Assembly: GCF_000242595.2 (NCBI RefSeq)
Contig: NC_017098.1
Coordinates: 2,561,501 to 2,625,500, forward strand
Direction: 5' to 3'
Length of the DNA stretch: 64,000 bases
DNA from: Spirochaeta africana DSM 8902
GTDB lineage: Bacteria > Spirochaetota > Spirochaetia > DSM-27196 > DSM-8902
The notes under the pieces were generated by a model. The model saw nothing but the letters and a program-made list of their open reading frames with translations, did no database searches and had not been told where the DNA came from. The stretch's first letter is position 1, and every line of letters begins with the position of its first letter. Shown here one piece after another: positions 5,967 to 50,403 of the stretch. A program made the position numbers and the translations under genes.

Positions 5967-6054
5967 GCCGAAGCCGCCAGTCACACAGCCGGCCAAAGCC
6001 CGCCCATGCAGCCCGCGCCTGACCACCCGCCCAGCAACAGTGCACCCCCATCAA

Positions 6055-6160
6055 CGGGGGGAGAGCCCTCCCCCTCGCTGCAAACCCTCTCTCGGGGCTG
6101 CAGTCCCTGCTCCGTCCCCTCCGCAGGGCAGCCCCGCGGGTTTTCCGCTGCCCCCTCCGG
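6055..6160. repeat. Dispersed GC-rich repeat, family 1, copy A
   Basis: About 106 bp, nearly identical to copies at 33904-34011 and 39662-39769, with a truncated copy at 7588-7645. It contains complementary arms (GGGGGGAG with CCTCCCCC, and GGGGCTGC with GGCAGCCCC) and should fold strongly. All copies lie between genes. The remaining bases up to 6308 hold only a weak inverted repeat (TCAGGAG/CTCCTGA). Confidence 0.85.
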
Positions 6161-7561: not shown

Positions 7562-7587
7562 TTCCGACCAAACTGCAACCCCCTCCA

Positions 7588-7645
7588 TGGGTGGAGCGCC
7601 CTCCCCCTCGCTGCAAACCCTCTCCCGGGGCTGCTGCCCCTTACT
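7588..7645. repeat. Dispersed GC-rich repeat, family 1, truncated copy B
   Basis: Matches the first half of the family-1 repeat (ggagcgccctccccctcgctgc region through cggggctgctg), then diverges before the stop codon of the DUF1349 gene. It lies at one edge of the AT-richer accessory region, where the family sequence appears to be interrupted. Confidence 0.75.
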
Positions 7646-7649
7646 CGTG

Positions 7650-8231
7650 TTATCGCCAGTGACTGTCCTGCAGGGAGAAACTGTCGAATATTGCCTCGAA
7701 GCTGCTGTCCATAGGGCTGCAGGCATAGACCCCGACTTCCAATGCCTCACTGGTACCATGTAAGTGAGCTATGCGTAACTGCCGCCAGGTGCTGCCGTCT
7801 TCGGAATTCTCGATCAGCATATCATTGCCCTTGCTCTGAATTCGGTACCACATCACGGATATGCGTGAATCTATATCTATGGTGGCCCAGTCAGAATACC
7901 CCAGATTGGTAACCACTGAACCCAGCCGGGAATGTGCCGGTGTTTCATACTCGACAGATGCCTTGATCCAGTTCTGCGAATCGATGCGCACCATCAGGCC
8001 GCACTGATCGTATTGCTGCTGCGGCTGGAACTCCGTTCTGACGGTCACGGCAAAATCCGTTTCTGTTCTGGTGAATAAACAATGCCCATTGTCGCGCTGG
8101 AAATTATAGTGGGTGTTCTGCCAGAAGTCAGTGTCGGGCGAGGTAACCATATGCAGCCGGTTGTTCATAATTCTGAAGTCGGGTTTATTGAACCAGTAAA
8201 AATCCTGGTGTATTTCGTTCTTTTCCAGCAT
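7650..8231 (-). CDS. DUF1349 (concanavalin-like) domain protein
   Basis: 193 residues. The sequence FYWFNKPDFRIMNNRLHMVTSPDTDFWQNTHYNF is the characteristic start of DUF1349 proteins, which have a concanavalin-like beta-sandwich; DQCGLMVRIDSQNWIKASVEYE is the conserved centre. The yeast homologue is 'regulation of enolase 1', but bacterial functions are not established. The start at 8231 is chosen because AGGAG lies 7 nt upstream; a longer frame (to 8264) would overlap the preceding gene. It is the third gene of a tight minus-strand operon (HAD, hydrolase, DUF1349). Base composition is more AT-rich than the flanking core. Confidence 0.85.
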   Translation of the reverse strand: MLEKNEIHQDFYWFNKPDFRIMNNRLHMVTSPDTDFWQNTHYNFQRDNGHCLFTRTETDFAVTVRTEFQPQQQYDQCGLMVRIDSQNWIKASVEYETPAHSRLGSVVTNLGYSDWATIDIDSRISVMWYRIQSKGNDMLIENSEDGSTWRQLRIAHLHGTSEALEVGVYACSPMDSSFEAIFDSFSLQDSHWR

Positions 8232-12879: not shown

Positions 12880-14228
12880 GATAGTGTCCTGAAACGTTCG
12901 CAATTTGAAAAGTAAAAGGAGCCATTGGATCCTCCGAAAGGTGTAGTAGCCAAACCATACCAAAGGAGAACACACAATGGCCCCACTCAAAGCTACCGCA
13001 GATTTCGAGAAACTTCTATCCCGTTTCATAGGTGAACAGGATCCTCTGCTTGAAATGCTCAAATGGATGACCGAACAGCTCATGCGCATTGAAGCTGAAA
13101 ATAAAGCCGGTGCCGTGAAAGGCAAGCATGTCGCAAATCGGACGACTCATTTCAGCGGTTCTCGTGTCAGAAGATTCGATACCCGTCTGGGCACCATGTA
13201 CCTCGTCGTTCCAAAGCTGCGCAAGGGCGGGTACATTCCCTTCTTTGTAACCGAGAAGAAACGCTCGGAACAAGCACTCCTACAGGTAGTGCAGGAAGCA
13301 TTTATCAACGGTGTTTCTACCCGTAAGATCGATCGCCTCGCCAAGGAGCTGGGGATTGAATCCATATCAGCCAGCCAGGTCTCTGAAATTAATAAGGGGC
13401 TGGATGAACAGGTTCAGCAATTTCGCAACCGAGAGCTGGATTCAGAATATCCAGTTATCTGGATTGATGCACTGTATGAAAAGATACGCCATGGCCAGAG
13501 AGTGCAGAATGAAGCAGTGATGGTGGTTTGTGGCCTTAATTCTGCTGGAGAGCGCGAAATACTTGCTATAGAGCCCATGGAAACTGAATCAGAGGAAACA
13601 TACGCCGACCTGTTTCAGCGCTTAAAACAGCGCGGTCTCAAGCATGTATGGCTTGTGGTATCAGATGCACACCAGGGATTGAAAAATGCAATCCGATCAG
13701 AATTTGTCGGCGCATGTTGGCAACGGTGTAAAGTGCATTTCATGCGGAATGTCCTCGCCAAAGTACGCAGCAAACACAAGGAACAATTTGCAGAGCGATT
13801 AAAGCACATCTGGCTGCAGCCAGATCAAGCTACCGCGCGAAAATACGCCAAGCAGCTTATGGATGACTGGGAAGACTCTTGCTCTGATGCAGTCGAAATC
13901 CTGGATTCCGGACTTGATGACTCACTGCAGTTCTATGCCTTTGCAAAAATCGATGCACGGAAAATCTCCTCCACCAATATGCTGGAGCGATTGAACAAAG
14001 AAATCCGTCGACGATCAAAGGTGGTTGGCGTCTTTCCGTCCAGGGAGTCATACATCAGAATGGTCACCTGCTATCTGATAGAATACACCGAAGACTGGAC
14101 AACCGGCAGATCGTACATTAAAAAGGAATCACTGGATGAACAGAAAGAATTCATCCTGAGAACGGTTGCGTAACCAGCCGGAGGCTGATGGCTCCAGGGT
14201 GAAATTGCAAACACGTTTGGACACTATC
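12880..14228 (+). mobile_element. IS256-family insertion sequence, apparently complete
   Basis: About 1349 bp. Imperfect terminal inverted repeats share GATAGTGTCC at the tip and GCAATTT further in (left 12880-12907, right 14201-14228 inverted). A single transposase gene fills the element. No 8-9 bp target duplication is visible at the flanks (ATATGAAA against AGAATTAG), so the insertion may be old or followed by rearrangement. Confidence 0.85.
12977..14173 (+). CDS. IS256-family transposase
   Basis: 398 residues, full length for the family. It has the Mutator-type (MULE) catalytic core: first Asp in VIWIDALYEKIR, second Asp in WLVVSDAHQGLKNAI, and Glu in STNMLERLNKEIRRR, followed by the conserved SKVVGVFPSRESYIRM segment. 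The CxxH-like motif WQRCKVHFMRN is present. It cuts and joins DNA at the element's inverted repeats. AAGGAG lies 8 nt before the ATG. No frameshift is seen, so the element may still be active. Confidence 0.95.
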   Translation: MAPLKATADFEKLLSRFIGEQDPLLEMLKWMTEQLMRIEAENKAGAVKGKHVANRTTHFSGSRVRRFDTRLGTMYLVVPKLRKGGYIPFFVTEKKRSEQALLQVVQEAFINGVSTRKIDRLAKELGIESISASQVSEINKGLDEQVQQFRNRELDSEYPVIWIDALYEKIRHGQRVQNEAVMVVCGLNSAGEREILAIEPMETESEETYADLFQRLKQRGLKHVWLVVSDAHQGLKNAIRSEFVGACWQRCKVHFMRNVLAKVRSKHKEQFAERLKHIWLQPDQATARKYAKQLMDDWEDSCSDAVEILDSGLDDSLQFYAFAKIDARKISSTNMLERLNKEIRRRSKVVGVFPSRESYIRMVTCYLIEYTEDWTTGRSYIKKESLDEQKEFILRTVA

Positions 14229-14503: not shown

Positions 14504-14557
14504 GCCTAACTCGTCCGTACGCGCCGCATAGCGCGTATGGACACTCTGTCTTCATCC
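14504..14557 (-). other. attC/attI-like hairpin beside the recombinase gene, site C
   Basis: Arms GTCCGTACGCGC (14513-14524) and GCGCGTATGGAC (14531-14542) pair with one mismatch around a 6-nt loop. Read on the minus strand, the outer end is GTTAGGC, an exact GTTRRRY core site; the other end (TGAAGAC) fits poorly. It lies about 53 bp downstream of the recombinase stop codon. Weaker than sites A and B; it could also be a recombinase-gene terminator, though there is no T-run. Confidence 0.33.
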
Positions 14558-14609
14558 CAGTGTTGCGTATATGAGGTCAAAATGCAACGAAAATCTGCAG
14601 TTGTGCGGG

Positions 14610-15655
14610 TTACAGCTCCAGCTCGTCCAGGGGGCTGGTGACACGGGTGATGAGCGCGGTCGAGACGTGGGTGTAGATCTCGGTGGTTTTGGTGCTGGCG
14701 TGACCGAGCAGTTCCTGGATGATGCGCAGGTCGGTGCCGTTTTCCAGCAGATGGGTGGCAAAGCTGTGGCGCAGGGTATGGACGGTGGCCGGTTTGCGGA
14801 TGCCGGCGGTGTGGCAGGCGCGGTGAAAGATCTGCTGGATGCTGCGGATGCTGTAGCGCCCGCCCTTCTGTCCCTCGAACAGCCAGACCTTGGGGGTATA
14901 CTCGGCCAGATACTCCTCCAGGTAGGCGCACAGCCGCTCGGACAGGGCACGTGGCGGTCCTTTCTGCCTTTGGACTGGGCGATGCGGATCATGCCGCGGT
15001 CATAGTCGATGTCAGCCAAGCGCAGGTTAATGTCTTCGCTGACGCGCAGCCCGGCGGAGTATATCAGACAGATGGCGGTGCGGTGTTTGGTGTTCGAAAT
15101 GCTGCGGATAATTGCACTCACCTCCCCTTCCGAGAGCACCACCGGCAGGCGCTGCTCGTGGCGGGGCCGCAGCTTCTCGGTGGGCATACGACGCCCGAGC
15201 ACGGTTTCCAGATAGAACTTGATGGCATTTACCGCCAGGTGCTGGAAGCTTGCGCTGCAGTGGTGTTCGGTAATGTGGTTGATATAGCGCAGCACCTGGG
15301 TGCTGTCGGGATTGGCCTCCTGGCAGAACTCGAGAAACCGGCGGATATGCAGCAGATAGGTTTTGATCGTGTGGGGACTGTAGCGGCGGCGCTGCAGATG
15401 CCGCCGGCATTCTGCCAGGGGATCCTCGCCGGATGGTAGCGGCTCACTGAAGGTGACCGGGGCGACCGGGGCCAGGCGTTGGGTGAGCTGTTCGCGGGTT
15501 ATGCTCTGCTCGGGCACCAGCCAGACCCGCTGATCCGGCAGGTAACGGCGCCCGGGCAGCCGGCGTACCGCCGCGACCAGCGCCTCCTGGTAGGCAAAAC
15601 CGAGCCGGTAGTATCCGTCGGCAACCGTGATGGTTATCCCCGCCGTGGTGCGCAT
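14610..15655 (-). pseudogene. Tyrosine recombinase (XerC/D-like) with a single-base frameshift
   Basis: Residues 1-70 form an extra N-terminal domain (YYRLGFAYQEALVAAVRRLPGRRYL...) seen in some XerD-like recombinases; then a SAM-like core-binding domain and the catalytic domain. Arg I lies in SAGLRVSE. After GRKDRHVP (about position 14945, a CCC run) the frame shifts by one base. The other frame then supplies the rest: [12 protein letters not shown] (H-x-x-R), QELLGH and the nucleophile in TEIYTHVS, ending at 14610. Restoring one C would give 348 residues. The 20-residue insertion typical of integron IntI is not seen. The 3' end faces the attC-like segments. Confidence 0.8.
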
Positions 15656-17267: not shown

Positions 17268-17585
17268 TCAGGTGTGGAAAAGTACCATCTCTTCAGGAAC
17301 ATCCTTCCTGGGTGTGCGTGGATGAACTTTGATTTCCACATCGAGATCCAACTGTGCAAGGTATTTTATCAACGTGGACAGCTTGATATCACCGCGAGCT
17401 TCGATCCGCGAAATTGCCGGCTGAGAAAAACCTTTCATGTCTGTTTGTTTCACCTTGTATTGCTCGCGTAGTTCAGCAAGATTGAGTGCCAGCAATTCAC
17501 GCTCGTATATTTTATCCGAACGAGCAATAGACTCCTCGGTCATCCCTTCTTCCATTGCATGCATCGCATCATTGACTATCCCCAT
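17268..17585 (-). CDS. higA: HigA-like antitoxin (XRE helix-turn-helix)
   Basis: 105 residues. A helix-turn-helix spans residues about 50-80 (KVKQTDMKGFSQPAISRIEARGDIKLSTLIKYLAQL), as in XRE/HigA antitoxins, with an N-terminal helical extension that could bind the toxin. It lies 15 bp downstream of the toxin gene, the toxin-first order typical of higBA. Expected roles are neutralising HigB and repressing the operon through the palindrome at 17978-17993. Confidence 0.85.
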   Translation of the reverse strand: MGIVNDAMHAMEEGMTEESIARSDKIYERELLALNLAELREQYKVKQTDMKGFSQPAISRIEARGDIKLSTLIKYLAQLDLDVEIKVHPRTPRKDVPEEMVLFHT

Positions 17586-17600
17586 ATCGTATTCCCTCCG

Positions 17601-17960
17601 TCAGCGTGACTCCAGATATTTCTCATATAGATTTTCCGCTTGAGTAATCAGGTTCTGGTAGAATCGTTTGTTCTTCGATCCTCCTTTCACGGCTCCTGTT
17701 AGAAGTAAACAGACCCGATCGCCGGTGAATATAAACACAATCCGATATTTCCTTCCTTGTGCCTGTATCCGCAATTCCTTCAGATTCGCGTACTTGCTTC
17801 CTTTGAGAGTATCCACATACGGACGTCCCAATGCCGGGCCTTTTTCAAGGAGTAATTTGACGTAAGCACGAACAGCTTCCTGCACCGGTGCAGCTTGCAT
17901 CTTGAACCACTCAAGGTACTCGGTAGTACTCTGCAGCAGCCGTTCATCGCTTTTCCCCAT
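17601..17960 (-). CDS. higB: HigB-like toxin (RelE superfamily, DUF891)
   Basis: 119 residues, standard length. RelE-fold features are present: the LKGSKYANLKELRIQAQGRKYRIVFIFTGDRVCLLLTGAVKGGSKNK segment is diagnostic of the HigB/phage Gp49-like group, which cleave mRNA on the ribosome. The Lys/Arg-rich strand (ELRIQAQGRKYRI) and the GAVKGGSKN loop contain the usual catalytic basic residues. Followed by higA. TATTAT lies 4 nt before the ATG. Confidence 0.87.
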   Translation of the reverse strand: MGKSDERLLQSTTEYLEWFKMQAAPVQEAVRAYVKLLLEKGPALGRPYVDTLKGSKYANLKELRIQAQGRKYRIVFIFTGDRVCLLLTGAVKGGSKNKRFYQNLITQAENLYEKYLESR

Positions 17961-18026: not shown

Positions 18027-18186
18027 GCAGGGAGCCCGCAGGGCTGACCCCGCAGCAGCCGCCAGGCTGCGAGGAGGCCGGAGCGCCCAACGGGCGTACG
18101 CAGTAGCTCGGCGGTTCAGGCGCGTAGCCCGGACCCAGCCCGACCAAGCGCGCCGGGGTCGCGGGCATGGGGGTTAGCAGGATGGA
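18027..18186. repeat. Dispersed GC-rich repeat, family 2, copy 1
   Basis: About 160 bp, highly similar to 20630-20800 (shared core: gcagggagcccgcagggct, cgcagcagccgccaggctgc, gaggaggccggagcgccc, gggcgtacgcagtag). Contains internal complementary arms such as GCCGCCAGGCTGC and a GGGCGCTCC/GGAGCGCCC-type palindrome. It fills most of the gene-free stretch 17994-18289. Confidence 0.85.
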
Positions 18187-18498: not shown

Positions 18499-20538
18499 TC
18501 AGCGCTGTTCCAGCTGCTGCTTGAGCCAGGTTTCGGCTTCGGCGGGGGTGCTGAAGGCGGCGCAGATGTCCTGAACACCGGCGTCGGCAAATATACGCTG
18601 CAGCTGCAGGCGCTTGAGGCGGCTGCCGGCAACGTTGGCGTTGGCGACCATGCCGTGGCTGCGGTTCCAGGTGAACGAGTCGTGGACGATTTCTTCCACC
18701 TCTGCACTGGCGGTGTCCCATTCCTGCATGTCGGTCAGCAGTCCCCAGGGCGAGCCGAGCGCTGGCTGCACGGCGGTCTGGAAGTCGGCGATGTAGCTGC
18801 GGGCGTCCTCCGGTTTCCAGCTGCCGCGAATGATTTCGCGCATGATGCCGGCGGGCTGGTCCAGTTCAAAGATGTAGGGCTGAACTGCCTGGCTTACGGT
18901 TGATACCCCGCCGCGATACAGCACACGTGTCATCTCATCGGTAGCCTCGGCAACGGCGTCGACTGCATCGCGCAGGTCCTGTCCCTGTTCGCCAATCCCC
19001 TCTACCCGCTCCAGCAGTCCGGCGGCTTCGCTGGAGATTGTCTGTACCGATGCGACCATGCGCTCGCGGCCCTGATCCATCTCGGCCGAGGCACTGGCGA
19101 CCTCGCTGGTGAGTTCGACCATGCGGTGCAGGGCGGTGGTTACCTGTTCGCTGCCGTTGGCCTGCTCCTGCATTGCCAGGTTGATCTCGCGCTCGCGGTC
19201 GTTTACCTCGGCGATGATGCCGGTCAGGTTCTGCATGGCCTCGCGGGAGGCGGAGCTGGCCTGAACACAGGAGGTAATCCTGTCGGCCACGTCTTTCAGA
19301 TTTTTGGAGATGGTGGTGGATTGTCCGGCAGCGTTCTCGGCGAGTTTGCGGATTTCCTCGGCCACCACCGAGAATCCGCGGCCGGCAGATCCGGCATGGG
19401 CGGCCTCGATGGCAGCATTCATTGCCAGCAGGTTGGTCTGGGCCGCGATTCCCTGCAGTACGGTGTTGGCTTCGCCCAGGCCGACCGAGGCAGCGGCAAT
19501 CTGCTGCACCAGGGTGTCGACCTCGGCCATGCGTTCGCTGCCGGTACGGGAATGCTGGTCCAGCACCGAGAAGCGTTCCGCGTTGGCGTCCAGGGTGCTG
19601 CGCAGGGACTTGATGTTGGCCACCATCTGCTCGACCGCGGCGGAGGCTTCCTCCACCATGGCTGACTGATCCTGGATCAGGTTTCCCAGCGAGCCGATAG
19701 AGCGGCTGATCTGCTCGATGACGGCGCCGCTGTCCTCGGCTTCGCGCGACTGGGCAGCAACGGCGCGGCGCATGTCGGCTATAGCATCCTCGATATACCG
19801 GGTACCGGTACGCGTTACCGACATGCGGCTGAGGATTCGATCCTCGAGCCCGGCCAGTTCCTGCAGGATGTCACGCATGGTGCGGGCGTCCTCGCCGGCG
19901 GTGCGAACCGCTTGCTGCAGCAGCCGGTCGGCTGCCGTGTGATGCCCGGAGGGTTGATCAGCCGGCAATGCAAGGAGTTCACGATCAAGCTCGCGGCTGC
20001 GCCGCAGCCGTACATCCACGCCGCAGACCCCGACAGCGGCAGCACCATCGAATACCGGTACGGCGGCGGTGGTCATCAGCACCGGGGTACCGTCCAGCGA
20101 ATACTCGAACGGGTCCAGAAGGATCGCCTGTCGGGTTTCCAGGGGCTGCCGATAGAATTCCTCGCGTTCGACATCGGGAATGCTCATGACTGCCGCACCC
20201 TGGGCAGAACGGTAGACATACACTGATGTGTGGTCGGTCTGCCCGGCACCAGGTTCAAAGGCGGCCCAGACACCAAAAAAATCGGGGTTCTGTGCCAGCA
20301 GGACTTCCATCTGCTGCTGCAGTTCCCCCTGGCGTCGCCACGGCAGCACATGGGGCTGCATCTGTGCAGCAGCGGTTACCGCCTGCTGCACGGTACGGTA
20401 CTCGGACAGCACGGCATCGCGCAGCCCGGCGGTGTGCGCCCGCAGGCTACGGACGGTGCCGACACGCAGGCGCCACAGCAGGATTCCCAGGACCAGGGCT
20501 ACAGCCCATCCGAGAATTCCGGTAAGTACTATTATCAT
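18499..20538 (-). CDS. Methyl-accepting chemotaxis protein with Cache-like sensor and extra C-terminal domain
   Basis: 679 residues. One N-terminal membrane segment (about 3-24); a PDC/Cache-like sensor region (about 60-190, [25 protein letters not shown]); helical linker; MCP signalling domain (about 250-545) with the hairpin tip [15 protein letters not shown] that binds CheA/CheW. A C-terminal 120-residue domain follows (about 555-679, W- and D-rich) and resembles SpoIIAA/STAS-like folds; most MCPs lack it. Only one membrane span is seen, so the Cache region may be cytoplasmic, which is odd for that domain. Flanked by family-2 repeats. Confidence 0.88.
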
Positions 20539-20629: not shown

Positions 20630-20800
20630 GCAGGGAGCCCGCAGGGCTGCCACCGCAGCAGCCGCCAGGCTGCGAGGAGGCCGGAGCGCCCGTCGGGCGT
20701 ACGCAGTAGCCCGGCGGTTCAGGCGCGGAGCCCGGAGCCAGCCCGACCGCGCGCCCCGGGGTTGGGGCGGCGCGGGGGACATGGCGGTTGGCAGGATGGG
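20630..20800. repeat. Dispersed GC-rich repeat, family 2, copy 2
   Basis: Second copy of the element at 18027-18186, in the same orientation. It occupies most of the gene-free stretch 20539-20840 between the MCP and hcp genes. Copy 2 has GC-rich additions near its right end (ccccggggttggggcggcg). Confidence 0.85.
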
Positions 20801-22603: not shown

Positions 22604-22651
22604 AGCTGCAGTATACGGGAGTGGTGCCGGGCGCGCCGTAACATGTGTTAC
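22604..22651 (-). promoter_or_regulatory. hcp promoter with a CRP/FNR-type operator at -41.5
   Basis: GTAAC-ATGT-GTTAC (22638-22651) is a perfect palindrome of the 5-N4-5 build used by CRP/FNR-family regulators. A -10 box TATACT occupies 22615-22610 on the minus strand, giving a predicted start near 22603. The palindrome centre is then 41.5 bp upstream, the classic class II activator position, and no good -35 box is present. HcpR or another NO/redox-sensing family member is the natural candidate. Confidence 0.65.
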
Positions 22652-22697
22652 ATGGGTAGCATTGGTGATATTCCGACGAATTTGGCAATCTGTCGAT

Positions 22698-22720
22698 TTA
22701 CTCGGCCAGTGACCGAGTAA
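22698..22720. promoter_or_regulatory. Palindromic operator 1 of the fatty-acid operon
   Basis: Perfect 8-bp arms TTACTCGG and CCGAGTAA separated by 7 bp, immediately upstream of the -35 box. Half-sites TCGG and CCGA are shared with operator 2. Confidence 0.7.
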
Positions 22721-22723
22721 AGG

Positions 22724-22759
22724 TTGACACGTCGGTCGATAACCGACTAAATAAAATCC
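22724..22759 (+). promoter_or_regulatory. Promoter and operator 2 of the fatty-acid operon
   Basis: TTGACA (22724-22729), 18-bp spacer, TAAATA (22748-22753), then 6 nt to the ATG at 22760. A second palindrome, GTCGGT-CGATA-ACCGAC (22731-22747), fills the spacer exactly, so a bound protein would exclude RNA polymerase. No Shine-Dalgarno precedes the ATG, which suggests a leaderless transcript. TetR-type lipid regulators use similar operators, but no regulator gene is nearby. Confidence 0.7.
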
Positions 22760-23719
22760 ATGGATATGGATATGGAAAAATTTGCACCGCAAGACTGGGC
22801 GCTGATCCTGGGGGGATCCAGCGGATTCGGGCTGGCAACAGCCAAAAAGCTGAGCGCTGCCGGTCTCTCGGTTTGTATAGTCCATCGCGACCGCAAGGGT
22901 GCGATGGCTCGCGTAGAGCAGGAGTTTCAGACGGTACAGGATGCCCTGCATCCCGGCGCGCAGTTTCTGGCGCTGAACCTGGATGCCCTGAGTCGTGAAG
23001 GTATAGCCACCACTCTGGCGGCGATGCAGGAAAAGTCTGACGGCAAGGTACGGGTGCTGCTGCACTCGATCGCGTTTGGCAACCTGAAGCCGATTGCGCC
23101 GGTGGCCGACACCGCGCAGCGCGAGAACGATGCCCTGCTTGAGCAGCTGGCCCGGAAGCTGGGCAGCTCGAAGGATACCCTGCAGAGCACCCTGAGCGAT
23201 CTGCTGGCCGAGGGTCATGATGCCCTGTCGGCACTGGTCCCGCCGGTGTACGGCGAGAACCTGATCGAGGACGAGGATATGGCACGCACCATCTACAGCA
23301 TGGGCACCAGCCTGCTGACCTGGGTACAGCAGGTCTTTGCCGCCGGGATGTTTGCCGACGATGCGCGGGTTTTCGGTCTGACCAGCGAGGGCAACGATAT
23401 CGCCTGGCGCGGCTATGCTGCCGTGTCGGCGGCCAAGACCGCCCTGGAGTCGGTGTCGCGCTCGATCGCGGTGGAGTTTGCCCCCTACGGGATCCGCTCC
23501 AACATCATCCAGGCCGGGGTTACCGACACCCCTGCCCTGCGGGCCATCCCGGGCAGTGGTGCCATGAAGGCCGCAGCCCGCATGCGCAACCCGTTCGGGC
23601 GCCTGACCACCCCGGAGGATGTTGCCAACGTAATAGCACTGCTGAGCCGACCCGAGGCTGGCTGGATCAACGGAAGCCTGATCCGCGCCGACGGAGGGGA
23701 ACATATTGCTTCAGCCTAA
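22760..23719 (+). CDS. Enoyl-ACP reductase-like short-chain dehydrogenase (FabI type)
   Basis: 319 residues, longer than FabI (about 260). The Rossmann start is LILGGSSGFGLATAKKL, similar to the variant glycine motif of enoyl reductases. The catalytic pair is Tyr-x6-Lys in GYAAVSAAKTALE, the FabI/FabL spacing (classical SDRs have Tyr-x3-Lys). The C-terminus GWINGSLIRADGGEH is typical. It would reduce trans-2-enoyl-ACP in each elongation round. A charged insertion (about 115-165) accounts for the extra length. First gene of the operon; in-frame ATGs also lie at 22766 and 22772. Confidence 0.8.
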   Translation: MDMDMEKFAPQDWALILGGSSGFGLATAKKLSAAGLSVCIVHRDRKGAMARVEQEFQTVQDALHPGAQFLALNLDALSREGIATTLAAMQEKSDGKVRVLLHSIAFGNLKPIAPVADTAQRENDALLEQLARKLGSSKDTLQSTLSDLLAEGHDALSALVPPVYGENLIEDEDMARTIYSMGTSLLTWVQQVFAAGMFADDARVFGLTSEGNDIAWRGYAAVSAAKTALESVSRSIAVEFAPYGIRSNIIQAGVTDTPALRAIPGSGAMKAAARMRNPFGRLTTPEDVANVIALLSRPEAGWINGSLIRADGGEHIASA

Positions 23720-24734
23720 TCTGTACCTGCATGGTGTCGGGCACTTTCATCCCGACACCGTACTGGACAACCGGTTTCTCGAGGAGCTGGACATTGGCAC
23801 CAGCGATGCCTGGATCATGGAGCGGGTCGGGATCCGCACCCGGCGCAGCGTACTGCCGCTGGATTACATCCGCCAGACCCGCAATGCCGATCCGCGTGCG
23901 GCACACGAAGCGGCTGACTACAGCAATGCCCAGTGCGGCGCTGCTGCCGCCCGCGTGGCGCTGCAGCGGGCCGGAATCGGCCCGGATCAGATCGGGATGG
24001 TGATTGCCGGGGGCTGCTCCCCGCAGTACAGCATCCCGGCCGAGGCCTGTACCATTGCCAATGAGCTGGGGGTTGCTGCCCCCTGTTTCGATCTGGGGTC
24101 GGCCTGCTCGAGCTTTGCTGCCCAGCTGGGGTTTTTGAGCAAGATGCAGCCCGATGCCCTCCCCGACTACATCCTGACGGTGAATGTGGAGAACACCACC
24201 AAAACCGTAGATTACACCGATCGCAACACGGCAGTGCTGTGGGGCGACGGGGCGGCGGCAGCGGTCGTATCGACCCGGCTGCCGGGGATCGCGGCTATAC
24301 GCCACAGCCTGCTGCATTCCGATCCGACTGGCTGGGACAAGGTTTATATTCCCAGCGGCGGGCATTTTGACCAGAACGGTTCAGCGGTTCAGGGGTTTGC
24401 AATCCGCAAGAGCGGTGAGTGCCTGAGCGAGCTGCGCCCCCATCTGGAGCGCCCGGATTTCTGGTTTATCGGGCATCAGGCCAATCTGCTGATGCTGCAG
24501 AAGGTGGTAGCACGGGCCGGCATCGATCCGGCGCGTCATTTATATAACGTCGATGCCTTCGGCAACTGCGGCGCCGCCGGAGCACCCGGGGTGCTGTCGC
24601 AGAACTGGGAGCGGCTGGCGGCCGGGGACGAGGTGGCCCTGGCGGTGGTCGGCTCGGGGTTGACCTGGGGGGCACTGGCCCTGCAGGTGCTGGCGGCACC
24701 TGGCGGAAATCGGGACAAAAAGGAAACACGATGA
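23706..24734 (+). CDS. 3-oxoacyl-ACP synthase III-like protein (FabH type)
   Basis: 342 residues from a TTG start (23706) with GGAGGGG 6 nt upstream; it overlaps the reductase gene by 14 bp. The catalytic triad of FabH enzymes is complete: Cys134 (GSACSSF), His257 (FIGHQAN) and Asn287 (GNCGAAGAP). It should condense an acyl-CoA with malonyl-ACP to start a fatty-acid chain. The opening YLHGVGHFHPDTVLDNRFLEELDIGT marks a FabH-like subgroup distinct from housekeeping FabH, so the primer may differ from acetyl-CoA. Confidence 0.88.
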   Translation: MLQPNLYLHGVGHFHPDTVLDNRFLEELDIGTSDAWIMERVGIRTRRSVLPLDYIRQTRNADPRAAHEAADYSNAQCGAAAARVALQRAGIGPDQIGMVIAGGCSPQYSIPAEACTIANELGVAAPCFDLGSACSSFAAQLGFLSKMQPDALPDYILTVNVENTTKTVDYTDRNTAVLWGDGAAAAVVSTRLPGIAAIRHSLLHSDPTGWDKVYIPSGGHFDQNGSAVQGFAIRKSGECLSELRPHLERPDFWFIGHQANLLMLQKVVARAGIDPARHLYNVDAFGNCGAAGAPGVLSQNWERLAAGDEVALAVVGSGLTWGALALQVLAAPGGNRDKKETR

Positions 24735-25315
24735 AATACGCAGATTACTTACAGAAGTCCTCACTGAACAAAGAGGAGATTATGGCCCTGGCCTGGGGCA
24801 GCCTGGTCGAGGATCCGCCCGAGGGCGGGCTTGCCTGCCTGCCGGCCCCGCCGATGCTGATGATCGACCGGATTCCGGTGATCGAGCATGACGGCAACCG
24901 CGGCCGCATTGTGGCCGAACAGGATGTACAGCTGGATGCCTGGTTCTTTCAGTGCCACTTCCGCAACGACCCGGTGCAGCCGGGCTGTCTGGGGGTCGAC
25001 GCGGTCTGGCAGCTGATCGGGCTGTATGCCGGGCTGCGCGGGGCGCAGGGCTACGGCCGCGCCCTGGGGATCAAGGAGATCGAGTTCCAGGGGCAGATCC
25101 GGCCCCATAACGAGGTGGTGCGCTACGAGGTAGCCATCCGGCGCTATGCCGATCTGCCGGCCTCCGGCAGTGCGGTGGCGATCGGCAATGCCGAGGTGTT
25201 TGTCGATGACGAGCTGATCTACACCATGAAAGATGCCAAGGTCGGTATCTTCAAGGGGATTCAGTACGCCGATTATCCGCACCACAGCCCGCAGTCGCGG
25301 GGAGGGAAGATGTAA
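24731..25315 (+). CDS. fabA: FabA-type 3-hydroxyacyl-ACP dehydratase/isomerase
   Basis: 194 residues, slightly longer than E. coli FabA (172). The active-site signature is clear: His76 in FQCHFRNDPVQPGCLG and Asp90 in GVDAVWQL, 14 residues apart as in E. coli (His70/Asp84). Asp rather than Glu, and the PVQPGCLGVDAVWQL stretch, mark FabA rather than FabZ. FabA dehydrates 3-hydroxyacyl-ACP and can isomerise trans-2 to cis-3, the entry to anaerobic unsaturated fatty acids. Start overlaps the FabH stop (ATGA). FabA is best known from proteobacteria, which makes it notable here. Confidence 0.88.
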   Translation: MKYADYLQKSSLNKEEIMALAWGSLVEDPPEGGLACLPAPPMLMIDRIPVIEHDGNRGRIVAEQDVQLDAWFFQCHFRNDPVQPGCLGVDAVWQLIGLYAGLRGAQGYGRALGIKEIEFQGQIRPHNEVVRYEVAIRRYADLPASGSAVAIGNAEVFVDDELIYTMKDAKVGIFKGIQYADYPHHSPQSRGGKM

Positions 25316-25316
25316 T

Positions 25317-25793
25317 ATGGCTGAGTATCAGGGAGAGAAACTGAGTCCGCAGCGTCTGCTGGAGCTGCTGCCGCAGCAGCGTCCGTTTCGCTTTGTAGAC
25401 GAGATCGTCGCCGTAGATGAAAAGAGCATCCACGGGCGCTACACCTTTCGCGAGGATGAGCATTTTTATCAGGGACATTTCCCCGGCAACCCGATTACCC
25501 CCGGGGTAATCCTGCTGGAGAGCATGTGCCAGGTCGGGGTTGTCTGCCTGGGGATCTATCTGGTCGGACTTGAGCTGCCGCCGGAGGAGCACAGCAACTG
25601 GCTGACCCTGTTCTCGGACGCCGAGGTTGAGTTCAGCCGCAGCGTGCTGCCCGGGGACACCGTGGACATCCGCGGCGAGCTGCTGTTCTGGCGCCGCCGC
25701 AAGCTCAAGGCCCGCGTTACCATGACCAATCAGCACGGCGAGGTTGTCGCCACCACGACAGCATCCGGAATAGGAGTGAAAAATGTCGAATAA
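25317..25793 (+). CDS. fabZ: FabZ-type 3-hydroxyacyl-ACP dehydratase
   Basis: 158 residues from the ATG at 25317, one base after the fabA stop; a longer frame starting inside fabA is rejected. The hot-dog fold signature YQGHFPGNPITPGVILLESMCQ holds catalytic His54 and Glu68, the same numbers as in E. coli FabZ. It dehydrates 3-hydroxyacyl-ACP to trans-2-enoyl-ACP. Having FabZ and FabA together suggests a split between saturated and unsaturated branches. Confidence 0.9.
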   Translation: MAEYQGEKLSPQRLLELLPQQRPFRFVDEIVAVDEKSIHGRYTFREDEHFYQGHFPGNPITPGVILLESMCQVGVVCLGIYLVGLELPPEEHSNWLTLFSDAEVEFSRSVLPGDTVDIRGELLFWRRRKLKARVTMTNQHGEVVATTTASGIGVKNVE

Positions 25794-27072
25794 ATCAGCA
25801 CGTGAACGCGTAGTAATCACCGGCATGGGCATCGTTGCTCCCAACGCCCATGGACTACCGGAATATGAGGATGCATTGCGCACCGGGCGCTCCGGCATCC
25901 GCTTTGTACCGAAGCTTGAGGAGCTGAAGTTCAGCTGCCAGGTGGGCGGGATTCCACAGGGCATGGACGAGAAGAAGCACGACTACTTCAGCGATGATCT
26001 GCTGCGCGCTATGAACAGCTCAATGATCTATGCCGGCATTGCGGCCATCGACTGCTGGCGGGATGCCGGTCTGCCGGAACATCCGGTAGAGGATGAGGTG
26101 GTCGACTGGGACACCGGGGCCATCGTCGGTACCGGGATCGGCGGGGCCGATACCCTGGGCGAAAAGGTGGTTCCCAAGGTTGATGCCGGCAGCACCCGGC
26201 GGCTGGGCAGCACCATGGTGGAACAGACCATGGCCAGCGCAGTCAGCGCCCGCATTGGCGGGCTGCTGGGGCTGGGCGGCCAGGTAACCACCAACTCCAG
26301 TGCCTGCTCTACCGGTACCGAGGCCATCATCATGGCGTATGAGAGGATTCGCAGCGGGCAGGCCAAGCGCATGCTGGCCGGCGGGGCCGAGGGCCACAGT
26401 CATTATATATGGGCCGGGTTTGATGCGATGCGGGTGCTGGGGCGCGGCTTCAACGACACCCCGGAAAAGGCATCGCGCCCGATGAGCGCCAGCACCGGCG
26501 GGTTTATCCCCGGATCCGGCGCCGGGATTCTGATGCTGGAAAGCCTGGAGAGTGCCCTGGAGCGTGGCGCGACCATCTACGCCGAGATACTGGGCGGGAG
26601 CATCAACAGCGGCGGACAGCGCGGCAAGGGCAGTATGACCGCCCCCAACCCTGAAGGGGTACGCCGCTGCATCCGCGCGGCAATCGATGCCGCCGGGATC
26701 AAGCCGCAGGATATCGACCTGGTGAACGGCCACCTGACCGGCACCATGGCCGACCCGCTGGAGGTAGAGAACTGGCGGGCAGCCTTGGATGTAGAGCCGG
26801 CACAGATCCCCTACATCAACGGCACCAAGTCCCTGATCGGGCACGGCCTGGGGGCCGCCGGCGGGATGGAGTGTGTTGCCGCGGTGCTGCAGCTGCACAA
26901 GGGGTTCATCCATGGTTCGGTAAACTGCGAGGATCTGCATCCGGATCTGGCGGCATTCGAGAGCCGGATCGTGCGCGAAACCCGCGACACCGACGCCCGC
27001 ATCCTGGCCAAGGCCAGCTTCGGGTTCGGGGATGTAAACGCCTGCACCATCTTTGCACGCTACACGGATTAA
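25783..27072 (+). CDS. 3-oxoacyl-ACP synthase II-like protein (FabF/FabB type)
   Basis: 429 residues, full length. The thiolase-fold active site is Cys175 (TNSSACSTGTEA), His317 (VNGHLTGTMADPLE) and His354 (TKSLIGHGLGAAG). In FabF the first His lies in N-A-H-G-T-S-T; here the motif reads N-G-H-L-T-G-T, an unusual variant that keeps the His. It elongates acyl-ACP with malonyl-ACP. Overlaps fabZ by 11 bp. Divergence near the active site suggests a specialised chain or substrate. Confidence 0.9.
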   Translation: MSNKSARERVVITGMGIVAPNAHGLPEYEDALRTGRSGIRFVPKLEELKFSCQVGGIPQGMDEKKHDYFSDDLLRAMNSSMIYAGIAAIDCWRDAGLPEHPVEDEVVDWDTGAIVGTGIGGADTLGEKVVPKVDAGSTRRLGSTMVEQTMASAVSARIGGLLGLGGQVTTNSSACSTGTEAIIMAYERIRSGQAKRMLAGGAEGHSHYIWAGFDAMRVLGRGFNDTPEKASRPMSASTGGFIPGSGAGILMLESLESALERGATIYAEILGGSINSGGQRGKGSMTAPNPEGVRRCIRAAIDAAGIKPQDIDLVNGHLTGTMADPLEVENWRAALDVEPAQIPYINGTKSLIGHGLGAAGGMECVAAVLQLHKGFIHGSVNCEDLHPDLAAFESRIVRETRDTDARILAKASFGFGDVNACTIFARYTD

Positions 27073-27138
27073 CAGAGGCATACAGAAGCAAAACACGGGC
27101 TCCAGCCCGAAAAACCAACTACCCTTAAGGAGGGAGAC

Positions 27139-27387
27139 ATGAGCAAGCAGGAAGTATTCGACAAGGTAGTGGCCATCATCGGTCCGTTTGCCAAGGATGA
27201 AGAGGCACTGAAGGGTGCCACCGAGGAGACCAACATCCTCACCGATCTGAAGGTAAACTCTGCCCGACTGGTGGACATCATCCTGGACTTCGAGGATCAG
27301 TTTGATATCGCTATCGACGATGATGCTGCCGACCAGATTCAGACCCTGGGCGACGCAGTGAACAAGATCCTGGAGATCAAGGGTTAA
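27139..27387 (+). CDS. Acyl carrier protein
   Basis: 82 residues, acidic, with the four-helix ACP pattern. The phosphopantetheine attachment site is Ser41 in LKVNSARLVDIILDFED. The usual D-S-L is replaced by N-S-A, so this is a dedicated rather than housekeeping carrier. AAGGAGGGAGAC before the ATG is a strong Shine-Dalgarno. It carries the growing chain for the adjacent enzymes and is probably charged by the phosphopantetheinyl transferase at 28206. Confidence 0.92.
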   Translation: MSKQEVFDKVVAIIGPFAKDEEALKGATEETNILTDLKVNSARLVDIILDFEDQFDIAIDDDAADQIQTLGDAVNKILEIKG

Positions 27388-27388
27388 T

Positions 27389-28234
27389 ATGCAGCACGCA
27401 GCACGGAAGGGGCAGTCGTCACACGACCAGGAGTCGCTGCGCGCGGCCCGGTCGGCCGCAAAGCGTTTGCTGAACCGGGCTGCCCGGTTCGGTCTACGCA
27501 TGCAGGCCCTGCTGGCGCGCCTCTTCCTGCCGCTGCTGTACCCTACCTATCATATTCTGTTGCGGTTTGTGCTGGGCTATTCCATGCCCGGCTACCGCAA
27601 GGTGCGGGCCGACATCCGCAAGGCTGTCGGCCGCAAGCGCCGCCCGCTGCTGATCTGCCCGAATCACCTTACCATGATCGACTCGATCATCCTGATGTGG
27701 GCATTGACCCCGTGGTGGCGCACCTTCTGGGATCTGCGGTTCTTCTCCTGGAACACCCCCGAAAAAACCAACTTCGCCCATATCCCGGTACTGCGATTCT
27801 TTACCTACATCGGCAAGTGCATCGAGGTCGTTCGGCGCGCCCCGCGCGAGGAAACCCAGAAACTGCTGGCCAAGCTCAAACTGCTGTTGGCCAGCGGACA
27901 GAGCCTGATGATCTTCCCCGAAGGCAAGCGCAGCCGTACCGGCCGGGTAGATACCGAGGATTATGCCTACGGGGTGGGCAAGCTGATCCAGGATCTGTAC
28001 CAGATGGGGGCCGAACCCGAAGTTCTGTGCCTCTACCTGCGCGGTGAGCACCAGGACAGCTACAGCACCATACCGGTCCGCGGCGAACGTTTTCATCTGA
28101 GCTTTCGCCTGATCCAGCCCCATTCGGAACAGGATGGGCTGCGCGCGCATCGTGACATCTCCCGGCAGATCATTACCCAGCTGACCGAGATGGAGGACGA
28201 GTACTTTGCTGCTGCCACTGAGACTGGGCAATGA
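27389..28234 (+). CDS. 1-acylglycerol-3-phosphate acyltransferase-like protein (PlsC family)
   Basis: 281 residues. Motif I is NHLTMID (NHxxxxD), with the FPEGKRSRTGR motif III further on (about residue 178), as in glycerolipid acyltransferases. Hydrophobic stretches near residues 35-60 should anchor it to the inner membrane. It likely moves the chain made on the neighbouring ACP onto a lysophospholipid or another acceptor. Starts 2 bp after the ACP stop. Confidence 0.85.
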   Translation: MQHAARKGQSSHDQESLRAARSAAKRLLNRAARFGLRMQALLARLFLPLLYPTYHILLRFVLGYSMPGYRKVRADIRKAVGRKRRPLLICPNHLTMIDSIILMWALTPWWRTFWDLRFFSWNTPEKTNFAHIPVLRFFTYIGKCIEVVRRAPREETQKLLAKLKLLLASGQSLMIFPEGKRSRTGRVDTEDYAYGVGKLIQDLYQMGAEPEVLCLYLRGEHQDSYSTIPVRGERFHLSFRLIQPHSEQDGLRAHRDISRQIITQLTEMEDEYFAAATETGQ

Positions 28235-29309
28235 TGTAGTCGCCTGGAACAGCCGCGAGGCGCAGGAACACCAGCCCGGCAGCCGCCGCGCCCAGCGATT
28301 CCTGCAGCGGATTCTGCACCCGGCCGAGTTGCCGCTTTTTCACCAGCTCTCTGCCGATTGGCAGGATGAGAACCGGCAGGCTGATGGTCGGTGGGGCGAG
28401 CGTGCGCAGGCGCGGCTGGTTGATAGTCTGCCTGGCGAGCGTGCGCAGGCCGAGTTCGAGCAGGCGCAGGCGCGGCTGGCCGAGCGCCGGTGCACCCCCC
28501 TTCCCCAATCAGAACCCGATCCCTGCCTGCCGAGCCTGTCCTGGCATCAGGCCCTGTGGTGTATCTGGGCCGCCAAGGAGGCTGCATTCAAGGCTGCCGC
28601 CAAGATTATTCCCGACCTGCCCTTTTCCCCCTCCGCTATCCTGGTTCAGATGCTGCCGACAGGTGCCGCTGCTGCCAGGACGTGGTACGAACAGCCCGGT
28701 GGCGATAGTATCCCGGTAAAGGATTCCGCCTGCCGGCAGCTGCGGCCACTGGCATCGGGATGGGCTATGGTGCGCGGTCAATGGTTTGCGATCCAGTGGG
28801 AGGCCGATGCGGAAGCGGTGCATGCGGTAGCGGTCGGGCCGTATCTGCGTCCGGACGCATCGGCAGAAGCGGGCGTGCAGGGAGCGGCGACAGAAGCGGG
28901 GCTGCCGGGAGCAGGGGCGGCCCCGGCGGCGACGACACCAGCGGCGGCCACACCAGCGGTGGTTGCTGCCGATTGGGCGCCGACCGCACTGCCCGGATCG
29001 GCCCCGGCGGGGCCGATCCGGGTGCTGCATGCGGTTGCCGGACACGACGAGGTGCTGCTGCCGGATCATGAGGGGGCGACGGCCGCGCGGGCCTCGGCTG
29101 CGGTGCGTCGCCTGGCTGGCCAGCTGTTACAACACGTACCGGGTCTGCAGCAGCTGCAGCTGGAGATTCGCCGGCATCCTCTGCCTTCGGGGATTCTGAG
29201 CGCTCCACGGGTGTACCCACAGCACAATGCAGAAAACCAACCCTTGCAATCGGTCGATATCAGCCTGAGCCACGACGGCCCGTGGGCGGCTGCCGCGGTG
29301 CTGTACTGA
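28206..29309 (+). CDS. 4'-phosphopantetheinyl transferase with low-complexity insertion
   Basis: 367 residues from a TTG at 28206, overlapping plsC by 29 bp. The magnesium-binding motif GNDVVAW (residues 8-14) and WAAKEAAFKAAAK (about 120-132) are those of AcpS/Sfp-type enzymes, which attach phosphopantetheine from CoA to the ACP serine. DISLSHDGPWAAAAV at the C-terminus is also typical. The protein is much longer than usual because of an Ala/Gly/Pro-rich insertion (about 220-275) and a short repeated segment near residues 65-98 (ERAQA units). Last gene of the operon; natural partner is the ACP at 27139. Confidence 0.82.
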   Translation: MLLPLRLGNDVVAWNSREAQEHQPGSRRAQRFLQRILHPAELPLFHQLSADWQDENRQADGRWGERAQARLVDSLPGERAQAEFEQAQARLAERRCTPLPQSEPDPCLPSLSWHQALWCIWAAKEAAFKAAAKIIPDLPFSPSAILVQMLPTGAAAARTWYEQPGGDSIPVKDSACRQLRPLASGWAMVRGQWFAIQWEADAEAVHAVAVGPYLRPDASAEAGVQGAATEAGLPGAGAAPAATTPAAATPAVVAADWAPTALPGSAPAGPIRVLHAVAGHDEVLLPDHEGATAARASAAVRRLAGQLLQHVPGLQQLQLEIRRHPLPSGILSAPRVYPQHNAENQPLQSVDISLSHDGPWAAAAVLY

Positions 29310-33903: not shown

Positions 33904-34011
33904 CACGGGGGGAGCGCCCTCCCCCTCGCTGCAAACCCTGTTTCGGGGCTGCTGATCCTGCTCCGTCCCCTCCGCAGGGCAGCCCCGCGGGTTTTCCGCT
34001 GCCCCCTCCGT
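33904..34011. repeat. Dispersed GC-rich repeat, family 1, copy C
   Basis: Full-length copy, almost identical to copy D at 39662-39769 and close to copy A. It fills much of the stretch 33798-34026 between ldh and the thiamine importer; no other feature is seen there. Confidence 0.88.
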
Positions 34012-39661: not shown

Positions 39662-39769
39662 CATGGGGGAGCGCCCTCCCCCTCGCTGCAAACCCGTTCC
39701 TCGGGGCTGCTGATCCTGCTCCGTCCCCTCCGCAGGGCAGCCCCGCGGGTTTTCCGCTGCCCCCTCCGA
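39662..39769. repeat. Dispersed GC-rich repeat, family 1, copy D
   Basis: Full-length copy, nearly identical to copy C. It lies in the 270-bp gap between the APC and amidotransferase genes; no gene is seen in the rest of the gap. Confidence 0.88.
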
Positions 39770-50340: not shown

Positions 50341-50367
50341 CATTTTATCGGTCAACAACCGAGACAC

Positions 50368-50403
50368 TTGCCACACCAGCGGTTCACGTGCTTGAATCAG
50401 CTC
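50368..50403 (+). promoter_or_regulatory. Promoter of the SulP fusion gene (leaderless type)
   Basis: TTGCCA (50368-50373), 18-bp spacer, TTGAAT (50392-50397) with an extended TG (TGCTTGAAT), then 6 nt to the ATG at 50404. No Shine-Dalgarno. Confidence 0.45.

Follow-up and report, generated by a model that had tools for sequence, protein, structure and literature searches.

A FabA-containing operon with its own acyl carrier protein in Spirochaeta africana, probably a synthase of unsaturated fatty acids

A 64,000-nt stretch of the Spirochaeta africana DSM 8902 genome (the window; contig NC_017098.1, positions 2,561,501 to 2,625,500) carries an operon of eight genes, here called the cassette, that encodes a FabA-family protein together with a private acyl carrier protein (ACP) and a phosphopantetheinyl transferase (PPTase). 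We consider that the operon is probably a FabA-type synthase of unsaturated fatty acids, a self-contained system of the dissociated type II (FAS-II) that has been exchanged horizontally between phyla and is controlled by a TetR-family fatty-acid regulator. The chemistry is ordinary and the packaging is unusual.

Gene content and the housekeeping set

The original prediction of eight tightly packed genes for chain initiation, elongation, two dehydrations, enoyl reduction, carrier, acyl transfer and carrier activation is borne out by family searches. All eight genes lie on the + strand (22760-29309) with intergenic gaps of -14, -4, +1, -11, +66, +1 and -29 nt, their frames are open and their catalytic motifs are retained, and the families matched are, in order, adh_short_C2/enoyl reductase, ACP_syn_III, FabA, FabZ-like, ketoacyl-synt, PP-binding, Acyltransferase and ACPS. 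A divergent hybrid-cluster-protein gene (hcp) flanks the operon on one side and a convergent metE on the other.

22760..23719, + strand: putative enoyl-ACP reductase of the short-chain dehydrogenase/reductase (SDR) type, 319 residues, with a Y-x6-K site and a helical insertion of ~75 residues
23706..24734, + strand: beta-ketoacyl-ACP synthase III (KASIII, FabH-like), predicted from its family match to initiate chains
24731..25315, + strand: FabA, predicted 3-hydroxydecanoyl-ACP dehydratase/isomerase, with the His of CHF and the Asp of GVDAVWQ present
25317..25793, + strand: FabZ-like dehydratase (GHFPGNPITPGVILLES), probable start
25783..27072, + strand: beta-ketoacyl-ACP synthase (KAS) of the I/II type, with the clade signature NGHLTGT
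27139..27387, + strand: private ACP, with the phosphopantetheine site LKVNSARL
27389..28234, + strand: PlsC-type acyltransferase, motif NHLTMID
28206..29309, + strand: PPTase, motif WAAKEA, with a long Ala/Pro-rich stretch

The cassette FabA is a genuine member of its family. It scores 201.8 bits against NF003509 (cut-off 124), shares 46% of 160 aligned residues with the E. coli enzyme and, when aligned to solved FabA structures, shows the catalytic His and Asp of FabA (CHF...PGCLGVDAVWQ) rather than the His/Glu pair of FabZ. Both residues are retained in every full-length cassette copy aligned, and the protein would be expected to have trans-2/cis-3 isomerase activity. The protein encoded next to it shows the FabZ pattern, and a start at 25317 (MAEYQGEK...) is more likely for it than the upstream ATG at 25233.

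The reductase has the Y-x6-K arrangement of FabI and FabL (YAAVSAAK), in which Y219 and K226 are invariant among 21 sequences. Its AlphaFold model (mean predicted local distance difference test score, pLDDT, 90.7) matches many SDR structures, B. subtilis FabL included (TM-score 0.88-0.89 normalised by target, the highest target-normalised score among the matches listed), and on this ground we assign it to the SDR fold. Against the curated FabL family it reaches 107 bits (cut-off 328), below the score for FabI/FabL membership, and its action on enoyl-ACP is suggested by the motif and the operon context. The KAS scores 266.5 bits against the FabB family (cut-off 630) and so falls outside it. The PPTase frame (28206-29309) has an uncertain start codon and an Ala/Pro-rich low-complexity stretch in mid-protein; it is 367 residues long, compared with ~190-250 in most relatives.

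As predicted, the operon has no malonyltransferase (FabD) and no ketoreductase (KR) gene, so that in the window the steps of FAS-II are not all encoded together. A complete FAS-II nevertheless lies elsewhere in the genome, for which questions were answered by family searches plus a few stretches of sequence. FabH, FabD, FabG and FabF are found at 304-308 kb, an ACP of the DSL type at 1.920 Mb downstream of rpmF, FabZ at 2.503 Mb divergent from accB-accC-accD-accA (rpmF and the acc genes named by eye from the sequence), FabV at 1.624 Mb (544 bits, cut-off 400) and AcpS at 1.240 Mb. FabK was considered as the housekeeping enoyl reductase and rejected, since all its matches were below cut-off and FabV was found in its place. 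The cassette is thus not the only fab set in the genome but a parallel one, and the two missing activities can be borrowed from housekeeping FabD and FabG, as had been proposed. Simple duplication of housekeeping genes as the origin of the KASIII, enoyl reductase and FabZ was likewise rejected, their identity to the housekeeping proteins being only ~26-36%. A weak third ketoacyl-synthase match (31 bits) lies in a 404-residue frame at G000:C1:2949321-2949491.

Relatives of the cassette in Spirochaetota and other phyla

Synteny with relatives shows a conserved gene order, which in full cassettes reads FabD, enoyl reductase, (KASIII), FabA, KR, FabZ, KAS, ACP, PlsC, PPTase. Relatives' cassettes thus hold the FabD and KR of their own that S. 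africana lacks, while three close relatives (L036, L037, L038) are likewise without both. In three thermodesulfobacterial or myxococcal copies an acyl-CoA-dehydrogenase-like gene replaces the enoyl reductase. The two signature motifs noted in the original prediction, N-S-A at the ACP site and NGHLTGT in the KAS, are kept across the clade: nearly all cassette copies have NS[AS][RN]L where the housekeeping ACP has DSL, and NGHLT[AG]T where the housekeeping KAS has NAHGTST.

Of the 198 genomes sampled across the phylum 13 have a FabA of the cassette type, as do 6 of 248 across the class, S. africana included. When 22 carrier genomes were searched again, the cassette FabA was the sole strong FabA in each, including three assemblies of the gammaproteobacterium Marinicella; other matches (E 1e-14 or weaker) belonged to very large multidomain frames or to proteins about the size of FabZ. 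The description of a true FabA as unusual outside proteobacteria is therefore fair, and agrees with a 2009 paper in which FabA and FabB were found only in alpha- and gamma-proteobacteria (PMC2700279).

In a quick tree of KAS proteins, many forks of which are open, the cassette and Bacteroidota copies form one clade (Shimodaira-Hasegawa-like approximate likelihood ratio test, SH-aLRT, 100) separate from the housekeeping KAS. Copies from Marinicella, an Armatimonadota metagenome-assembled genome (MAG) and a Polyangiaceae MAG are nested among the spirochaete lineages, which argues for exchange between phyla. A recent transfer judged by composition was considered and dropped, as the G+C content gave no signal (cassette 63%, window 60%).

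The nearest outside relatives of the cassette KAS, ACP, FabZ and enoyl reductase are found in Bacteroidota operons (L050:2975-10210 and similar) that encode an FAD oxidoreductase, a methyltransferase, an enzyme like type III polyketide synthases (PKS), enoyl reductase, FabZ, KAS, ACP and PPTase, an operon type conserved in Flavobacteriaceae, Chitinophagaceae and Sphingobacteriaceae. They share with the cassette the lineage of KAS (NGHLTAT), ACP (NSANL), reductase (Y-x6-K) and PPTase but, unlike it, are without FabA, KASIII and PlsC. The best NCBIfam match of the PKS-like enzyme is DpgA, below cut-off, and the flavoprotein is of the geranylgeranyl-reductase type; the product is probably a phenolic or quinone-type lipid. 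A search for this operon type found no describing paper in the literature searched.

A probable operator common to the cassette and core fatty-acid genes

The region that separates hcp from the operon contains two inverted repeats.

22697..22721, unstranded: operator 1, inverted repeat TTTACTCGGCCAGTGACCGAGTAAA, found 0 times in shuffles and fitting the regulon motif
22724..22729, + strand: TTGACA, a possible -35 hexamer directly 5' of operator 2, in the same arrangement before the cassette of a second carrier (G282, locus L193)
22731..22751, unstranded: operator 2, inverted repeat GTCGGTCGATAACCGACTAAA, fitting the regulon motif

TTGACA immediately precedes the operator in both carriers, S. 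africana and G282, and its abutment would fit repression by occlusion; an automatic sigma-70 scan upstream of the operon returned no promoter by its criteria. The regulon motif was defined as the exact TCGGYN4RACCGANWAA with the reversed motif as control. It has 11 matches in the S. africana genome and 0 in the control, with 0.15 expected by chance, a value that somewhat understates chance because the motif was refined after the first sites had been seen. Across 18 genomes there are 34 matches and 1 in the control. A first operator pattern allowing two mismatches gave 13 matches against 8 in the control and is not used as evidence.

Two of the 11 matches come from a single palindrome, read on either strand, at a gene for a 190-residue TetR protein (~2.3265 Mb of the genome). 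Others stand at fabV, in the accB/fabZ divergence, at rpmF-acpP, at an AMP-dependent acyl ligase gene, twice before the cassette and at a 1209-residue E1alpha-E1beta-lipoyl-KASIII fusion gene, while a near match adjoins a sodium:solute symporter gene. Elsewhere in the order, sites occur beside orthologs of the TetR gene (49-50% identity, three genomes) and of acpP (84%, two genomes), and also beside fabH and fabD, fabF and orthologs of the E1 fusion and the symporter. G282, the other carrier of the order tested, has a site before its cassette. The operator is hence found at core fatty-acid genes and at a regulator gene, the cassette appears to share it on the basis of the motif, and the evidence for shared regulation is good. 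That the TetR protein binds these sites is suggested by the palindrome at its own gene and by co-occurrence. Its scores against the FadR (Bacillus), FasR and PsrA families are far below every NCBIfam cut-off; these are examples of TetR-type fatty-acid control in other phyla, and the likeness is one of regulator type. A literature search on a spirochaete TetR regulator of fatty acids yielded nothing usable.

The fusion protein (L133:5045-8671; ~2843.0-2846.7 kb of the S. africana genome) joins the E1 alpha and E1 beta parts of a 2-oxoacid dehydrogenase to a lipoyl domain and a KASIII, and could pass starter acyl groups straight into the making of fatty acids. In another genome (L174) the motif accompanies an ortholog that covers at least the E1 part. 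One copy of the motif (50344-50362) lies directly before a gene for a SulP transporter with STAS and cyclic-nucleotide domains (50368-52716).

Products, alternative explanations and known systems

Double bonds at c9 in C16 and c11 in C18 chains (n-7) are the outcome of FabA chemistry. According to one description, S. africana has a C16:1c9 dimethylacetal and makes a C14:0 dimethylacetal as well, and Salinispira pacifica is set apart from its relatives, S. africana included, by the absence of C18:1c11 (PMC4511686). The stated contrast implies that S. africana has C18:1c11. In the S. pacifica genome (G218) the search for FabA returned a FabZ-level match only. Literature searches on the fatty acids of Marinicella and of Coxiella gave nothing usable.

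In the synthase that we favor, the PPTase would load the private ACP, the KASIII would start the chain and the KAS II-type enzyme would elongate it with malonyl units, housekeeping FabD and FabG supplying malonyl transfer and ketoreduction in S. africana. FabZ would dehydrate and the SDR would reduce trans-2-enoyl intermediates until, at about C10, FabA would isomerise the chain to the cis-3 enoyl form, which the cassette KAS would extend to n-7 unsaturated C16 and C18 chains for the PlsC-type enzyme to place into phospholipid. A TetR-family repressor, apparently also controlling the core fatty-acid genes, would probably repress the operon through the two operators.

Several observations weigh against this reading. 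Against the older TIGR01749 model the FabA scores 156 bits, under the cut-off of 238, and the KAS sits in a clade of its own, neither FabB nor FabF. Apart from the refinement of the motif noted above, some motif neighbors are not obviously lipid genes (the SulP transporter, an unknown secreted protein) and two of three tested carriers of another family (G258, G244) have no exact site. The fatty-acid contrast concerns two species only and comes from the text, rather than a table, of its source, and clostridia make unsaturated fatty acids without FabA (PMC2700279); the S. pacifica contrast therefore supports the reading but does not prove it. Finally, a FabA and one KAS would suffice to branch unsaturated chains off the housekeeping pathway, so that the private ACP, PPTase and PlsC exceed the need, and the reason for a private ACP is the least certain element of the proposal.

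A rival reading, close to the original prediction, makes the cassette a synthase devoted to a single special lipid: the private ACP and PlsC would supply that lipid with a chain out of the ordinary (very long, polyunsaturated, hydroxylated or a plasmalogen vinyl-ether), as in the rhizobial AcpXL systems. The altered-site ACP, its PPTase and the acyltransferase stay together in most complete cassettes, the Bacteroidota relatives occur in a secondary-lipid context (type III PKS-like enzyme, methyltransferase, FAD oxidoreductase), and the C14:0 and C16:1c9 dimethylacetals of S. africana would suit such a product. However, those Bacteroidota operons have neither FabA nor PlsC, no glycosyltransferase, lipid A gene or desaturase was seen conserved beside the cassette, and the apparent regulon shared with accB/fabZ, fabV and acpP favors control of bulk fatty acids, leading us to regard a special lipid as unlikely. 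Bulk unsaturated membrane fatty acid is more likely, because the operator is shared with core genes and the n-7 chains of the species fit ordinary FabA products; of the earlier proposal, unsaturated membrane chains are retained and the special or outer-membrane lipid is weakened. A redundant FAS-II, serving under particular conditions (cold, alkalinity or salt, for example) and yielding no chains other than those of the housekeeping set, would explain why nearly every housekeeping step has a parallel, but FabA adds a function and duplicates none, most of the class is without the cassette, and with malonyltransferase and KR lost in S. africana it cannot replace the housekeeping set, making this highly improbable. 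That the operon is a decaying remnant of a once-complete imported synthase, on its way out after losing the FabD and KR kept in many other lineages, is barely credible given eight open frames with catalytic motifs intact, a composition in line with the window and an operator conserved in a sister genome that is likewise without FabD and KR. An aryl-polyene or polyunsaturated-fatty-acid synthase cluster was rejected, as the operon has no ligase/lyase or multidomain PfaA-type gene and does have an enoyl reductase, and so was a ladderane cluster, as the operon has no desaturase or radical-SAM gene.

A broader extension of the FabA-type reading can be offered only tentatively. The cassette may be an orthogonal, horizontally exchanged FAS-II whose ACP (NS[AS][RN]L) and KAS (NGHLT[AG]T) recognise each other through a code of their own. 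Several phyla would employ it together with FabA and PlsC for their membrane lipids, Bacteroidota would have turned it to supplying type III PKS, and in free-living spirochaetes it would have come under a TetR fatty-acid regulon not described before.

Compared with known systems, the cassette shares with the E. coli FabA/FabB pathway the FabA family, its active-site residues and the n-7 products expected; the E. coli pathway has no private ACP, PPTase, enoyl reductase or acyltransferase, and the cassette KAS, far under the FabB cut-off and in its own clade, is unlike FabB. The rhizobial AcpXL/FabZXL/FabF1XL/FabF2XL cluster is, like the cassette, a second FAS-II operon with a dedicated ACP and its own acyltransferase, but it makes very-long-chain lipid A fatty acids and has no FabA. 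The closest precedent is the horizontally acquired unsaturated-fatty-acid operon of Coxiella burnetii (CBU_0034-CBU_0038, ACP-FabB-FabZ-FabA-FabH), for which S. africana DSM 8902 was named in 2017 as the best BLAST match with a similar arrangement, as given in the accessible part of PMC5423948. In the window the ACP, KAS, FabZ, FabA and FabH genes follow the gene order of this operon type, the Coxiella arrangement of the five core genes being taken from that published description. Neither the existence of the operon nor its link to unsaturated fatty acids is new, therefore. The accessible part of the Coxiella description is without the reductase, acyltransferase, PPTase, the full form with FabD and KR, the ACP/KAS signatures and a regulator. 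Within the literature searched, five elements are new: the cassette in its complete form, which includes FabD, KR, enoyl reductase, PlsC and PPTase; the pairing of an ACP signature with a KAS signature; the branch in Bacteroidota; the contrast with cassette-free S. pacifica; and the operator motif that the cassette has in common with core fatty-acid genes.

If correct, the proposal means that FabA-type unsaturated-fatty-acid synthesis, once thought limited to alpha- and gamma-proteobacteria, is also found in other phyla, as a transferable unit that brings along a carrier and the enzyme to load it. ACP orthogonality would become testable in a natural system, an entire unsaturated-fatty-acid module could be drawn from it, and free-living spirochaetes would gain a candidate fatty-acid regulator and operator.

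Other features of the window are minor. Before the divergent hybrid-cluster-protein gene lies a perfect inverted repeat, GTAACATGTGTTAC (22638-22651; chance expectation 0.01 in the window), which we take to resemble the HcpR-type motif GTAAC-N4-GTTAC. A dispersed 106-nt repeat occurs in four copies (6054-6159, 7587-7692, 33905-34010 and 39663-39768; 62-94% identity to the first). By eye, a transposase-like gene stands beside a frame-disrupted tyrosine recombinase (12977-14173 and 14552-15655), and a toxin-antitoxin-like pair is seen at 17268-17960. A 138-nt direct repeat, 91% identical (18027-18164 and 20630-20767), encloses a gene on the minus strand (18499-20538) that by eye encodes a methyl-accepting chemotaxis protein.

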